NCBI RefSeq assembly: GCF_035593305.1
Contig: NZ_CP141615.1
Span: 1,488,001 to 1,552,000 of the forward strand
Length of the DNA stretch: 64,000 nt
Reading direction: 5' to 3'
Source of the DNA: Limnochorda sp. L945t
Lineage (GTDB): Bacteria > Bacillota > Limnochordia > Limnochordales > Geochordaceae
The notes under the pieces are model-generated. The model saw only the letters and a program-made list of their open reading frames with translations, made no database searches and was not told the origin of the DNA. The stretch's first letter is position 1, and every line of letters starts with the position of its first letter. Shown in pieces: positions 25,800-45,994 of this stretch. A program made the translations under genes and the position numbers.

Positions 25800-25816
25800 C
25801 AAGCCTCGCCGCGGCG
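25800..25816. repeat. 17-bp target-site duplication, left copy
   Basis: CAAGCCTCGCCGCGGCG, identical to 27342-27358, directly abutting the left TGTC end of the insertion sequence. Long duplications of 15-17 bp are known for part of the IS1202 group. Confidence 0.8.
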
Positions 25817-27341
25817 TGTCAAGGGACAGTGACTTTGTCACCCTTTCGCACGTTCATGGGGACCGAGATTATGTCATCCCGCTAAGTGTACAGAGCGGAG
25901 GAGCGTGGGACGCGCATGTCCTTGAAGGGCCGGCGCCACGGGTGCGTGGCTGGCGGGCGAGAGGTAGGGCGGGGCGATGGCGGCGGGGCCGTCACCGGTG
26001 TGGGGTTAGGCAGTGGTGGGGGCGTAACGACGTCCAGTTCCTGCAGGGTATAGACCTGGCCGGCATAGAGTGCGCGTCGCACGCCGTCCAGGCCGGTCAG
26101 TACGGTGACCGTCCGGCGGGGCGTCAGGGGCACCACGTGGCGGTGCGCATCCAGCAGCTGATAGGTCTTGCCCTGGAAGCTGATCGTGGAGCCGGCGGAG
26201 GCCTTGCGCGTCTCCCGCAAGGCCAGGATAGTGAGAAGCTCATGGGCATTGGGGGCAGGACGGAAGGCGGGCTGGGGGTCTTTCGGGGCGACCGCAAAGC
26301 GGCGGTTGAAGCGTTCGATGAACCCGGGCAGGAAGTGGTTGGCATCGTCCAGGGTGCGGACGCGGGCAATGCGCAGCTCGGTTACCAGGCGGCTTTGGAG
26401 GGTTTGCCAGAGGCGTTCGATGCGGCCTTTGGCTTGGGGGGAACGGGCCGGGATATGGACGATCCCGAGGGCCTGCAGGGCCTGACCGAACTGGGTCAGT
26501 GGGATCGTCTGGCCAGCCAGTTCCTCGTCGATGGACAGCCGGCCCTGCTTGGGGGAGAAGAACAGGGTGTGGCGGTCGGAGTAGAGGCGCACGGGCACGC
26601 CGTGGTGCTGGAGGATCTGGCGGAGGACCTGGAGATAGCCCATCAGTTGCTCGGTGAGGAGAAACCAAAGGCCCAGAATCTGACTGGTGGCATCGTCGAT
26701 GGCCCCATGCAAGCAGAGGTGAGGACCGCGGTCTTCCAGCCAGGCAAACGGGCTGGCGTCGACCTGGACCAAGGCGCCGGCTTGGGGCATCCGCTCCCGG
26801 GAGCGGCGCCGGCGGGCCGCTTTGTGGGTATGGGCCAAGGGAATCCCGGCCGCCTTGAGGATGCGGGCGATGGTCTTGGCACTGAGATGGACCTGATGGT
26901 ACTCGGCCAGGAGTTCGGCCATGTGCTGGCAGCTCGCATCCCGGTAGACATCCAGCGCCAGACCCAGGACGGTTTGGCGCACGGCGTCGGGGACCGCATG
27001 GCTGGGTCGGCGGCCGCGGTTTTTGTGGGCCAGGATGGCAGCCCCGTGCTGGGCGAAGGCGTGCTTGAGACGTAGGACATGGCGTTCGGACAGTCCGAGG
27101 GCTTGAGCTCCTTCCCATACCGTGATCTCGCCTTTGAGCAGACGCTCGAGCACGGGAATGCGCTGGGCCTCGTCGGGACGCAAGAAGACGTCACCCTTCA
27201 TGGGGACGAGACATTCGCCAGGGCGGGCGTCGGCCCCGGGGGGCACCCCCCGGGGCCCCACCCCGGGCCCCCTCCGGTCATCAGGGGAGTGACAAAATCT
27301 CAGTCCCGTTCACGGGGTGACATTATCACTGTCCGGCGACA
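25817..27341 (-). mobile_element. Intact insertion sequence, IS1202 (ISNCY)-like
   Basis: 1525 bp bounded by TGTC...GACA ends. The terminal inverted repeats read TGTC-NNN-GGACAGTGA then TGTCACCC on both sides, and a second block GGGAC-GAGATT-TGTCA about 35 bases further in also matches, so each end carries two related transposase-binding motifs. It is flanked by an exact 17-bp target duplication. One transposase gene fills the element on the minus strand. Intact frame, ends and duplication indicate a recent insertion. Confidence 0.85.
25882..27201 (-). CDS. DDE transposase, ISNCY/IS1202 family
   Basis: 439 residues from ATG 27201 (MKGDVFLRPDEAQRIPVLER). The N-terminal HTH reads LLKGEITVWEGAQALGLSER then HVLRLKHAFAQHG. 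The catalytic core shows Asp in LVQVDASPFAWLED, Asp in RLYSDRHTLFF and Glu in AKGRIERLWQTLQSRL, the DDE triad of this group. A Pro-rich tail ends at the stop inside the left end of the element. No strong ribosome site is seen; a frame extension to 27261 is possible. Confidence 0.9.
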   Translation of the reverse strand: MKGDVFLRPDEAQRIPVLERLLKGEITVWEGAQALGLSERHVLRLKHAFAQHGAAILAHKNRGRRPSHAVPDAVRQTVLGLALDVYRDASCQHMAELLAEYHQVHLSAKTIARILKAAGIPLAHTHKAARRRRSRERMPQAGALVQVDASPFAWLEDRGPHLCLHGAIDDATSQILGLWFLLTEQLMGYLQVLRQILQHHGVPVRLYSDRHTLFFSPKQGRLSIDEELAGQTIPLTQFGQALQALGIVHIPARSPQAKGRIERLWQTLQSRLVTELRIARVRTLDDANHFLPGFIERFNRRFAVAPKDPQPAFRPAPNAHELLTILALRETRKASAGSTISFQGKTYQLLDAHRHVVPLTPRRTVTVLTGLDGVRRALYAGQVYTLQELDVVTPPPLPNPTPVTAPPPSPRPTSRPPATHPWRRPFKDMRVPRSSALYT

Positions 27342-27358
27342 CAAGCCTCGCCGCGGCG
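27342..27358. repeat. 17-bp target-site duplication, right copy
   Basis: Exact repeat of 25800-25816, starting right after the GACA end of the insertion sequence and ending where the -35 box of the thiamine promoter begins. Confidence 0.8.
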
Positions 27359-40453: not shown

Positions 40454-40660
40454 GTTGGTCCCGCCCCGCGAGCGGGCCGGCGTGCTGCCGTTGTACGGCC
40501 CATCGCCCGAAGAGTCGCCCGCACCCCGCTCCGGAGAGTGCATCCTCGTTGCGCGCCTTGCTCTCGCCTCCATCGGGAGTCTGCTCCTACGACCCGCCGC
40601 GTGCAGACCGCATAGCGTGCCGTAGTCGGACCCGACGTGCGCAAAGGAGGGCATCGGCAC

Positions 40661-41446
40661 GTGAACAATTCTCAAAGCCAGAGCGTGCAGTCCACCGGCT
40701 CTGGCTGTCCGGACAGGCCCTTCTGTCGTCCCGGATGTCATGGCGGGGTTTACACCGTCCAACCCGGTGACACCATGTTCCTCATCGCCCAGCGCTTCGG
40801 CGTGTCCCTCAACGCACTCATCGCCTGTAACCCTCAGATCCCCGACCCGAGCCGCATCTTCCCGGGCCAGCGGCTCTGCCTACCGGGAGTGGCGCCTCCG
40901 CCGCCCTTCTGCGGTCCGGGGTGCCAGGGCGGGGTCTACACCGTGCAGCCGGGCGACACCATGTTCCTCATCGCCCAGCGCTTCGGCGTCTCCCTCAACG
41001 CGCTCATCGCCTGCAACCCGCAGATCCCCAACCCCAGCCTCATCTTTCCGGGCCAGCAGCTCTGCCTGCCGGGAGTGGCGCCCCCGCCGCCCTTCTGCGG
41101 TCCGGGGTGCCAGGGCGGGGTCTACACCGTCCAGCCGGGCGACACCATGTTCCTCATCGCCCAGCGCCTCGGCGTCTCCCTCAACGCGCTCATCGCCTGT
41201 AACCCGCAGATCCCCGATCCCAGCCTCATCTTCCCGGGCCAGCAACTCTGCATACCCGGAGGGCCGCCCCCCACGCAGTGCGGCCCCGGCTGCCGCGGCG
41301 GGATCTACACCGTCCAGCCGGGCGATACCATGTTCTTCATCGCCCAGCGTTTCGGCGTCTCCCTCAACGCGCTGATCGCCTGTAACCCGCAGATCCCCGA
41401 TCCCAGCCTCATCTTCCCGGGCCAGCAGCTCTGCATACCCGGCTGA
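40661..41446 (+). CDS. Protein with four LysM repeats
   Basis: 261 residues from GTG 40661 (MNNSQSQSVQ) with AAAGGAGGG upstream. After a ~25-residue lead come four near-identical LysM domains, each GVYTVQPGDTMFLIAQRFGV then SLNALIACNPQIPDPSLIFPGQQLCLPG, joined by PPPPFCGPGCQG linkers with paired cysteines. LysM domains bind peptidoglycan or spore cortex. No signal peptide is visible; similar proteins in spore-formers are placed in spore coats or around the cortex. DNA repeat period is 186, 186 and 183 bases. Confidence 0.9.
   Translation: MNNSQSQSVQSTGSGCPDRPFCRPGCHGGVYTVQPGDTMFLIAQRFGVSLNALIACNPQIPDPSRIFPGQRLCLPGVAPPPPFCGPGCQGGVYTVQPGDTMFLIAQRFGVSLNALIACNPQIPNPSLIFPGQQLCLPGVAPPPPFCGPGCQGGVYTVQPGDTMFLIAQRLGVSLNALIACNPQIPDPSLIFPGQQLCIPGGPPPTQCGPGCRGGIYTVQPGDTMFFIAQRFGVSLNALIACNPQIPDPSLIFPGQQLCIPG
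40737..41440 (+). repeat. Tandem DNA repeat encoding LysM units
   Basis: Four copies with a period of 186/186/183 bases, phased on TACACC at 40751, 40937, 41123 and 41306. Copies 2 and 3 are almost identical at DNA level, so the array is recent or kept uniform by recombination. Confidence 0.85.
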
Positions 41447-41605: not shown

Positions 41606-42516
41606 CCCTCGGCCTACCATCCAAGGCCGGACCAGGGAGGAGGCCGTACGGCGTGACGGGTACGCCGGCGCACAGCACCATCCGGTGGGACCTCGACGCC
41701 ATTTTCCCGGGCGCAAGCGCGTCTCCCACCTTCCACGAGTTTCTCGCCGCCCTCCAACGAGACGTGGCAGAGTTGGGGCGGCGCGTCGACGGGATGGAGG
41801 TTCCTTCTGGACCGGAGGCTTTCGGGCCATGGCGCGAACTCGTCGCAGCCCTGCAAGACATCGTCGAGCGGGTCGAGGAAGCCGATGCTTTCGTGGCCTG
41901 CTTGACCGCCCAGGACGTCGCGGACGAGCAGGCCCGCATCCTCGAGGGCCGCGTGCATCAGGTGGCGGCGACGCTGCAGGCGGCAGAGGCGCGGCTCGAC
42001 CCCAAGCTGCTCGCCATCCCCGATCCTACCTGGCGTGCGCTGCTCGCCGACCCGCCGCTGGACGCCGTCGCCTTCCCGCTTGGCGAGCGCCGGGAGCTCG
42101 CCCGGGCGAAGCTCCCGCCCGACCAGGAGGCCCTCGCCTGCGACCTCGCGGTGGACGGGTACCACGCGTGGGGCCGCCTCTACGACCTCGTCGAGGGGCG
42201 CATGCGCATCCCCGTGGAGCAGGACGGGCAAACCGAATACCTGTCGGTGCCCCAGGCGGCCAACCGTCTCGAGAGCCCTTCACGCCCGGTCAGGGAGGCC
42301 GTCTTTGCCCGCTGGGAGCAGGCATGGGCGGCCGAAGCGCCTCTCCTCGCGGCCATCCTCAACCACCTCGCTGGCTTCCGGTTGAGCCTCTACCGCCGCC
42401 GCGGGTGGCACGACGTGCTCTACGAGCCCCTGCGCCGCAACCGCCTCTCCCGGGCCACCCTCGACGCGATGTGGGAGGCGGTGGAAACGGCCGCTGCCCG
42501 CCTGGAGCCTTACCTG

Positions 42517-43277
42517 CGCCGCAAGTCTCGCCTTCTCGGCGTGGATGCGCCGGCCTGGCACGACGTGAGCGCTCCCCTGGCCGTCCACGAGCGCCGCTGG
42601 GGCTTCGACGAGGCGGCCGCCTTCGTGACCGAGCAGTTCGAGAGCTTTTCCCCCGACATGGCGCGCCTGGCCCGGCGTGCGTTCGAGGGGCGCTGGATCG
42701 AGGCGGAGGATCGGCCGGGCAAGCGGGCCGGCGGCTTTTGCACGAGCTTCCCCATCGCTCGCCAGTCCCGGATCTTCATGACGTTCGCCGGGATGCCGGC
42801 CAACGTGGAGACCCTGGCCCACGAACTGGGCCACGCCTTCCACCACTCGGTAGTCGAGGACCTTCCGCCCCTCGTCCAGCACTACCCCATGAGCCTGGCC
42901 GAAACCGCCTCGACCTTCGCCGAACTCGTCGTCTCCGAAGGCGCCATCCGGCAGGCGGAGTCGCCCCACGAGCGCATCGCGCTCCTCGACCGCCGCCTCT
43001 CCGCCGCCACGGACTACCTCATGAACATCCGGGCCCGTTTCCTCTTCGAGACAGCGTTCTACCGGGAGAGGGAGCAGGGGCAGGTGAGCGTCGCCCGCCT
43101 CAACGCCCTGATGGAGCAGGCGCAGAAGGAGGCGTACCGCCACGCCCTGAGCAGCTATCACCCGCACTTCTGGGCGTCCAAGCTGCACTTCTACCTGACG
43201 GGCCATCCGTTCTACAACTTCCCGTACACCTTCGGCTTCCTGTTCAGCCATGGCGTGTACGCCCGGGCCCGTTCCGA
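42517..43277 (+). repeat. 761-bp tandem duplication, copy 1
   Basis: Starts CGCCGCAAGTCTCG and ends GCCCGTTCCGA. The encoded proteins of the two copies appear identical throughout, as does the DNA where I compared it. Confidence 0.9.
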
Positions 43278-44038
43278 CGCCGCAAGTCTCGCCTTCTCGG
43301 CGTGGATGCGCCGGCCTGGCACGACGTGAGCGCTCCCCTGGCCGTCCACGAGCGCCGCTGGGGCTTCGACGAGGCGGCCGCCTTCGTGACCGAGCAGTTC
43401 GAGAGCTTTTCCCCCGACATGGCGCGCCTGGCCCGGCGTGCGTTCGAGGGGCGCTGGATCGAGGCGGAGGATCGGCCGGGCAAGCGGGCCGGCGGCTTTT
43501 GCACGAGCTTCCCCATCGCTCGCCAGTCCCGGATCTTCATGACGTTCGCCGGGATGCCGGCCAACGTGGAGACCCTGGCCCACGAACTGGGCCACGCCTT
43601 CCACCACTCGGTAGTCGAGGACCTTCCGCCCCTCGTCCAGCACTACCCCATGAGCCTGGCCGAAACCGCCTCGACCTTCGCCGAACTCGTCGTCTCCGAA
43701 GGCGCCATCCGGCAGGCGGAGTCGCCCCACGAGCGCATCGCGCTCCTCGACCGCCGCCTCTCCGCCGCCACGGACTACCTCATGAACATCCGGGCCCGTT
43801 TCCTCTTCGAGACAGCGTTCTACCGGGAGAGGGAGCAGGGGCAGGTGAGCGTCGCCCGCCTCAACGCCCTGATGGAGCAGGCGCAGAAGGAGGCGTACCG
43901 CCACGCCCTGAGCAGCTATCACCCGCACTTCTGGGCGTCCAAGCTGCACTTCTACCTGACGGGCCATCCGTTCTACAACTTCCCGTACACCTTCGGCTTC
44001 CTGTTCAGCCATGGCGTGTACGCCCGGGCCCGTTCCGA
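43278..44038 (+). repeat. 761-bp tandem duplication, copy 2
   Basis: Directly abuts copy 1 at GTTCCGA|CGCCGCAAG. No shared bases are seen at the junction, so there is no obvious short-repeat slippage signal. Confidence 0.9.
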
Positions 44039-44239
44039 AGGGAGCCGCTTCGCCTCGACCTACGCGGCCCTACTGCGCGACACCGGGCGCATGACCGTCG
44101 AGGAGCTCGCCCGGCGTCACCTGGGCGCCGACCTGACCCGCCGGGCCTTCTGGGACGAGGCGTGTGCGGCCGCCGTCGCTCCGCTCGACGACTTCCTGCG
44201 CCTCACCGCAGACGGCATGCCGCCCGAGGAGCGTGGCCG

Positions 44240-45994
44240 ATGATGGGTGTCACGATGAGCGACCGCCGGCCCGAGTACGAGGTGCGGGTCGAATACGACG
44301 TGCGGGTCCCCATGCGGGACGGGATCACGCTCTCCGCGGACGTCTACCGGCCCGCCGGGCCTGCGCCCGCCACCGCAACGGCCGGAGAGACGGGCGATGC
44401 CGGTGCTGCTGCGAATCGCTTCCCCGCCATCCTTTTGCGCACGCCGTACCTGAAGGTGTCGAAAGAGCAGCACGAGCTGGCTACCTACTTCGCGTCCCGG
44501 GGCTACGCCGTGGTTTGGATGGACGTGCGGGGGAGGGGAGACTCCGAGGGAGTCTTCGTGCCGTACCGCCACGACGGCGTGGACGGCTACGACGCGATCG
44601 AGTGGGTGGCCGCCCAGCCCTGGTGCGACGGTAACGTGGGCACCCTGGGGGGCTCGTACCTCGGCCGCATCCAGTGGCTGACGGCGCTCCTGCGCCCGCC
44701 TCACCTGAAGTGCATGGTGGTGCTCGTGACCCCGTCGGATCCGTTCGTCGAGGTGCCGACCGGCGTCCCGAGCCCCATGCACCTGTGCTGGGCGCACATG
44801 ACCAGCGGCCGCGTGATGCAAAACGTCGACAGCGTCGACTGGATGAAGGTGTACCGGCACCTCCCCCTGGCGACGATGGACGAGCAGGCGCTCGGCCGCA
44901 CCATCCCCTCGTGGCGCGAAGACCTGGCCCACCCGACCCTCGACGCGTACTGGCAACCCCTTCGCTACCAGCACCGCTTTCACGACATCGACGTGCCGGT
45001 GCTGCACATCTCCGGCTGGTACGACGACGAACAGATCGGCACCCCTCTCAACTTCGCCGGCATGACCCGCCACGCTCGCACCGAACGCGCCCGCCGCTCC
45101 CAGAAGCTCCTCATGGGCCCCTGGGGCCACCAGGTCAACCGCACCAGCCGCCTGGGCGACGTCGACTTCGGGCCGTCGGCCGTCATCGACTTGCGCGCTT
45201 ACCAGCTGCGCTGGTTGGACTACTGGCTCAAGGGTATCGACACCGGCATCATGGACGAGCCGCCGGTCCGGATCTTCGTGATGGGCGCCAACACCTGGCG
45301 CGACGAGGGCGAGTGGCCCCTGGCGCGCACGGTCTGGACTCGCTACTACCTGCGAAGCGGCGGCCACGCCAACAGCCGCTTCGGGGATGGCCTCCTCTCC
45401 CCCGTTCTCCCCGGCCCGGGCGAACCCCCGGATCATTACGACTACGATCCGGCCCACCCGGTACCGTTCATCACCGAGCCTACGTCGAGCCAGATCGGCG
45501 GCCCCGACGACTACTCGGCCATCGAGCGCCGCGACGACGTCCTGGTCTACACCACGCCGCCGCTGGAGGAAGACCTGGAGGTCACCGGCCCGGTCTCGGT
45601 GGAGCTGTACGCCTCGTCGTCGGCCCGAGACACGGACTTTACGGCCAAGCTCCTCGACGTGTGGCCGCACGGGTTCGCCCAGCGCTTGTGCGACGGCATC
45701 GTGCGGGCTCGTTACCGGGAGGGGATGGAGCGGCAGGTCTTCATGGAGCCGGGGCAGGTCTACCGGTTCACCATCGATCTCTGGAACACGTCGATCGTCT
45801 TCCGGAAGGGCCACCGCATCCGCCTGGAGATCGCATCCAGCGCCTTTCCCAAGTACGACCGCAACCTCAACACGGGCGGGGACATGGTGACGGAGACCGA
45901 GGGCGTCGTTGCCCACCAGACCGTCTACCACGACGCCGCGCGCCCGTCGTGCGTGATCCTGCCGGTCATCCCGCGAACCGGCGACGGGCCCTAG
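44240..45994 (+). CDS. CocE/NonD-family hydrolase (X-Pro dipeptidyl-peptidase S15 fold)
   Basis: 584 residues. VRVPMRDGITLSADVYRPAG, ILLRTPYLKVSKEQHELATY, YAVVWMDVRGRGDSEG, nucleophile region GNVGTLGGSYLGRIQWLTAL (GGSYLG, Ser), Asp in SGWYDDEQIG and His in MGPWGHQVNR. The last ~200 residues are the jelly-roll found in cocaine esterase and PepX (LEVTGPVSVELYASSSARDTDF, HRIRLEIASSAFPKYDRNLNTG). Cleaves amides or esters; a peptidase role is favoured by the oligoendopeptidase gene it overlaps by ATGA. A later in-frame ATG at 44255 could also start translation. Confidence 0.9.
   Translation: MMGVTMSDRRPEYEVRVEYDVRVPMRDGITLSADVYRPAGPAPATATAGETGDAGAAANRFPAILLRTPYLKVSKEQHELATYFASRGYAVVWMDVRGRGDSEGVFVPYRHDGVDGYDAIEWVAAQPWCDGNVGTLGGSYLGRIQWLTALLRPPHLKCMVVLVTPSDPFVEVPTGVPSPMHLCWAHMTSGRVMQNVDSVDWMKVYRHLPLATMDEQALGRTIPSWREDLAHPTLDAYWQPLRYQHRFHDIDVPVLHISGWYDDEQIGTPLNFAGMTRHARTERARRSQKLLMGPWGHQVNRTSRLGDVDFGPSAVIDLRAYQLRWLDYWLKGIDTGIMDEPPVRIFVMGANTWRDEGEWPLARTVWTRYYLRSGGHANSRFGDGLLSPVLPGPGEPPDHYDYDPAHPVPFITEPTSSQIGGPDDYSAIERRDDVLVYTTPPLEEDLEVTGPVSVELYASSSARDTDFTAKLLDVWPHGFAQRLCDGIVRARYREGMERQVFMEPGQVYRFTIDLWNTSIVFRKGHRIRLEIASSAFPKYDRNLNTGGDMVTETEGVVAHQTVYHDAARPSCVILPVIPRTGDGP

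Follow-up and report, generated by a model that had tools for sequence, protein, structure and literature searches.

An exact 761-bp tandem duplication in the assembled sequence of an M3 oligoendopeptidase gene

Results

The M3 oligoendopeptidase gene

We analyzed a window of 64 kb (64,000 nucleotides, the whole stretch of DNA under study) from a genome whose record consists of one contig of 3,313,549 bp. The gene of interest (Table 1) has a reading frame that matches Pfam Peptidase_M3 and Peptidase_M3_N as well as the NCBIfam model TIGR02290 (M3_fam_3, M3 family oligoendopeptidase), the latter more strongly than PepF TIGR00181, and these matches bear out its initial annotation as an M3 peptidase. 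The best relatives in the PDB are M3B oligoendopeptidases, e.g., 2qr4 and 3ce2. By profile matches across the 3.31-Mb genome, this was the sole gene with an M3 domain, and no second M3 gene was found there that could act as a backup. From what is generally known of the family, we take the product to be a probable intracellular housekeeping peptidase and not a surface antigen. The mechanical ORF opens at GTG 41602, and the likely start codon is GTG 41653, which is preceded by AGGGAGGAGG. When the length of one duplicated unit is subtracted, the frame from GTG 41653 comes to a whole number of codons (609 aa). Because the gene's normal stop codon shares bases with the start (ATG 44240) of the S15-family hydrolase gene that follows it, some polarity on the hydrolase gene is possible.

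Table 1. Coordinates of features at the M3 oligoendopeptidase locus (positions within the window).
Feature	Position	Strand	Basis
Probable ribosome-binding site (AGGGAGGAGG), 9 nt before GTG 41653 of the M3 gene	41634..41643	+	sequence
Truncated M3 oligoendopeptidase frame	41653..43329	+	profile matches, alignment; start codon choice inferred
Copy 1 of the 761-bp duplication, coding for HELGH and the rest of the second half of the M3 catalytic domain	42517..43277	+	sequence self-match, alignment
Novel junction, blunt, 0 bp microhomology	43277..43278	.	sequence; null distribution
Copy 2, 100% identical to copy 1 and out of frame with the gene upstream	43278..44038	+	sequence self-match
GTGA overlap, stop of the truncated frame over the native-frame GTG of copy 2	43326..43329	+	sequence, fragment alignment; function inferred
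Unduplicated 3′ end of the M3 gene, last 67 codons, out of frame with the 5′ part	44039..44243	+	sequence, alignment

The duplication and its boundaries

A self-match of the window at a lag of 761 showed that the segment 42517-43277 recurs head to tail as 43278-44038, with 761 of 761 positions identical. The two units together occupy 42517-44038 (1522 bases), so that both the exact, adjacent duplication reported in the initial annotation and its coordinates proved correct. Because no other exact direct repeat in the window exceeds 53 bp, a repeat of this length is far beyond chance. Across the whole genome the segment occurs exactly twice, both times at this locus. The left boundary of the duplication reads ...TTACCTG/CGCCGCAAG and the right boundary ...TTCCGA/AGGGAGCC, while the new junction between the copies reads ...CGGGCCCGTTCCGA/CGCCGCAAGTC... 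(in short form, TTCCGA/CGCCGCAAG). As had been claimed, the junction at 43277/43278 is blunt, with no microhomology (0 bp). It tells us little about the mechanism, since 50% of random breakpoint pairs drawn from the same window as a null distribution also have zero microhomology. The 18 nt located 5′ of the two breakpoints share a weak and imperfect similarity (11/18 matches; null P 0.01-0.06 depending on the statistic), which is marginally above random and would suit a template-switch origin through homeologous priming. With regard to hairpins, the single-strand folds at the three boundaries were no stabler than those of shuffled sequences (z = 1.1, -1.0, and 0.1). Duplication mediated by a mobile element or by repeats was rejected on the grounds that flanking repeats and microhomology are both lacking.

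Effect on the reading frame

The length of the unit leaves a remainder of 2 on division by 3, and the duplication therefore shifts the frame, as initially claimed. In the duplicated gene, the native frame runs for 541 codons, after which 17 codons are read out of frame up to a TGA at 43327-43329, i.e., the frame stops 52 nt into copy 2, and the predicted product is 558 aa in length. The HELGH motif (H390-H394 of the 541-aa part) is invariant in the orthologue alignment and lies inside the repeated unit, in agreement with the claim that the unit covers the active-site motif, and copy 1 is itself intact. The predicted product keeps HExxH and most of the catalytic domain but is without the final 67 residues; as read from the frame, the gene would thus be truncated late rather than deprived of its active site. 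The lost C-terminal segment (LLRDTGRMTVEELA...HLGVDLT) is conserved in an alignment of five orthologues. Because these conserved last 67 residues are lost, even though HExxH is kept, the duplication likely inactivates the peptidase. On TIGR02290, the 541-aa part covers positions 1-531 of 587 and the C-terminal part covers 296-587. The truncated part scores 559.3 bits, just under the curated cut-off of 561.7 bits, and the orthologue from G001, a genome of the same taxonomic family, passes with 626.9 bits. The assignment of the gene to TIGR02290 is therefore based on the two parts, which jointly cover the full model, since the truncated product alone misses the cut-off. In this respect, the gene resembles other TIGR02290 M3 oligoendopeptidases in that both of its parts match along the model, and differs from them in that its frame is interrupted while the orthologues have one open frame.

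The GTG within the GTGA overlap is a possible restart for a 305-aa C-terminal fragment, although the overlap itself is unremarkable, since any A, G, or T before TGA suffices to create one of this type. It is conceivable that the duplicated allele is maintained in an on/off or two-fragment form, where a restart at 43326-43329 would yield polypeptides of 558 and 305 aa, both with the active-site motif and perhaps associating with one another, and where loss of a unit would restore the single enzyme. We regard this as highly improbable.

Orthologues in related genomes

Orthologues were compared across 40 related genomes, all of them from outside the genus. The closest (51-62% identity) are single-copy and uninterrupted across the duplicated part, including those of G001 (same family), of G004, G007, and G011 (same order), and of L036 in a Fermentithermobacillaceae MAG. 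No recurrent duplication was seen in the alignment of M3 orthologues from these relatives. Since orthologues from the same order are single-copy and uninterrupted, the duplication is derived in the source lineage. It is also recent, because the identity of the copies leaves too little time for even a single difference to have arisen in 761 bp. This agrees with the initial view that the duplication, if real, is very young. In G002, a fragmented assembly from the same family, the M3 orthologue (L041, G002:C39:13414-15099) has one TGA and one TAG inside the match, perhaps reflecting sequencing error in that assembly or an independent loss.

Source genome and assembly

The source genome encodes RuBisCO, which is absent from G001, the family's other single-contig member, and has a G+C content of 69.8% in a 486-kb sample. 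Carboxydochorda subterranea L945 has been described as RuBisCO-bearing, with a closed genome of 69.48% G+C, and Geochorda subterranea LN as having 70.96% G+C and no RuBisCO (PMC11456536). The genome analyzed here fits L945 better than LN in these features, and L945 is therefore its probable source. A conspecific MAG of L945, Bu05 (GCA_014896295.1), has an AAI of 97% to it (PMC11456536). The L945 genome was assembled by hybrid SPAdes 3.13.0 from MiSeq 2x300 (about 2.0 Gb) and MinION (882 Mb) data (PMC11456536). By division, these amounts correspond to read depths of roughly 600x for MiSeq and 270x for MinION. If the genome analyzed here is that of strain L945, MinION long reads could span the 1.5 kb of the duplication.

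Exact tandem duplicates commonly originate when an overlap between contig ends is left untrimmed and is then buried by rotation of the record to dnaA. This was rejected in the present case: dnaA lies at 2.958 Mb, showing that the record is not rotated to it, no overlap was found between the record's two ends, and the ends abut seamlessly inside a mobile-element copy far from the duplication. Scanning of 486 kb (15% of the genome) revealed no further exact direct repeats above 53 bp and hence no sign of a systematic assembly fault.

Discussion

In the current study, we characterized an exact tandem duplication within a single-copy M3 gene of the TIGR02290 type. We consider it probable that the duplication arose spontaneously and very recently and became fixed or enriched in the sequenced culture. 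An artefact of assembly, in which the cells hold one copy and the assembler wrote the 761 bp twice, e.g., from a loop created by rare chimeric reads, is the main rival reading, although an unlikely one. The perfect identity of the copies is what would be expected from one graph edge traversed twice, the junction is blunt, and the gene that is broken is otherwise conserved. Moreover, the likely strain was assembled by hybrid SPAdes, in which a loop edge could be walked twice and a loop backed by only a minority of molecules could be expanded. Against this, the ends of the record lie elsewhere and do not overlap, and the 486-kb sample holds no similar repeat. The copies also show no mismatches or indels relative to each other, unlike a patch of unpolished long-read sequence. 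Finally, a de Bruijn assembly can branch exactly at both breakpoints only if k-mers of the junction are present in the reads, and the junction was therefore probably carried by at least some molecules. Taken together, the circumstantial evidence leans toward a real duplication rather than a misassembly.

A related possibility is a mixed culture in which most cells have one copy, and in which the assembly by chance captured a two-copy form that is unstable or in the minority. Since long tandem repeats are unstable, a culture with two copies should also contain one-copy cells. This scenario overlaps with a recent spontaneous duplication; however, the consensus shows the two-copy form only, and we consider a one-copy majority quite improbable.

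If the duplication occurred spontaneously, two non-homologous ends on sister or re-replicated DNA may have been joined without homology. The genes for Ku and an ATP-dependent DNA ligase lie side by side in the genome at ~1.742 Mb (L087 and L093, 1,741,801-1,743,211) and likely constitute a bacterial end-joining pair. Since these two genes adjoin, blunt, homology-free end joining by Ku and ligase is a possible source of the junction; replication template switching would be an alternative route. The frameshift would then truncate the protein ahead of its conserved C-terminal segment, probably abolishing function, and drift through the bottlenecks of pure-culture isolation may have carried the allele into the assembled sequence. 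A search of the two other closed genomes of the order showed Ku in both.

As with long exact tandem repeats in general, recombination or template switching is expected to make the allele revert at an appreciable frequency, and the initial suggestion that it is reversible through recombination between the copies can be accepted in principle. In E. coli, tandem repeats of 101 bp already delete at high frequency and independently of RecA (PMC8378479). The deletion assays in question, a standard approach in E. coli with repeats inside tetA (for example tetAdup101), resemble the present case in that an exact internal tandem duplication disables a gene and precise loss of a unit restores it. They thus model the way in which this allele would revert, but they differ in being engineered, on a plasmid, and based on a 101-bp unit (PMC8378479). 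By analogy, one would expect an exact repeat of 761 bp to be lost no less readily than the E. coli units.

Whether gain and loss of the segment amount to an evolved phase-variation switch that is under selection and regulates the peptidase is a separate matter. There is a pneumococcal precedent in cap3A, cap8E/wchA, and tts, where, by the account given in PMC4022640, spontaneous in-gene tandem duplications silence capsule genes and can revert (Waite, 2001, 2003). The likeness is that a direct duplication inside the reading frame inactivates the gene, with reversal expected from loss of a copy. Pneumococcal capsule duplications, however, have been found repeatedly and are smaller, from tens to a few hundred bp, whereas the present case is a single event of 761 bp, known from one assembly, that affects the peptidase gene of an environmental thermophile. 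The orthologues are without recurrent duplication, and the breakpoints possess neither short repeats or microhomology that would make the event recur nor any notable structure. In addition, the product is probably a housekeeping enzyme inside the cell and not a surface antigen. The initial annotation raised switching off and on by copy loss; any purposeful form of it was not supported, as there is no sign of recurrence in relatives and no second such locus in the sampled part of the genome, and we believe that there is very little chance of a selected switch. The duplication looks like an ordinary mutation, not a built-in switch.

If real, the duplication captures an unstable allele with loss of function, in the genome of a type strain from a class that is rarely cultured, and warns that the pseudogene annotated there may not be characteristic of the species. 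The locus would then also be a naturally occurring reporter with which to follow the loss of tandem repeats in a thermophile that has genes for Ku and ligase. Should the duplication not be real, the record contains a local assembly error that ought to be corrected. General understanding is unchanged in either case.

Two other repeated elements were observed in the window. Directly upstream of the M3 gene, a gene at 40637-41446 (+) encodes a protein with four LysM domains (Pfam) and contains near-identical, in-frame tandem repeats of 183-186 bp (about 90% identity, with exact stretches of up to 53 bp), making it a plausible site of repeat-number variation. A transposase-like mobile element at 25803-27356 carries a 459-aa ORF on the minus strand with HTH_32/HTH_29 and weak rve_3 matches. 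Another near-identical copy of this element lies at 1.730 Mb, and a third, 99% identical, spans the record's two ends, indicating that the point at which the circular record was opened lies within an insertion sequence.
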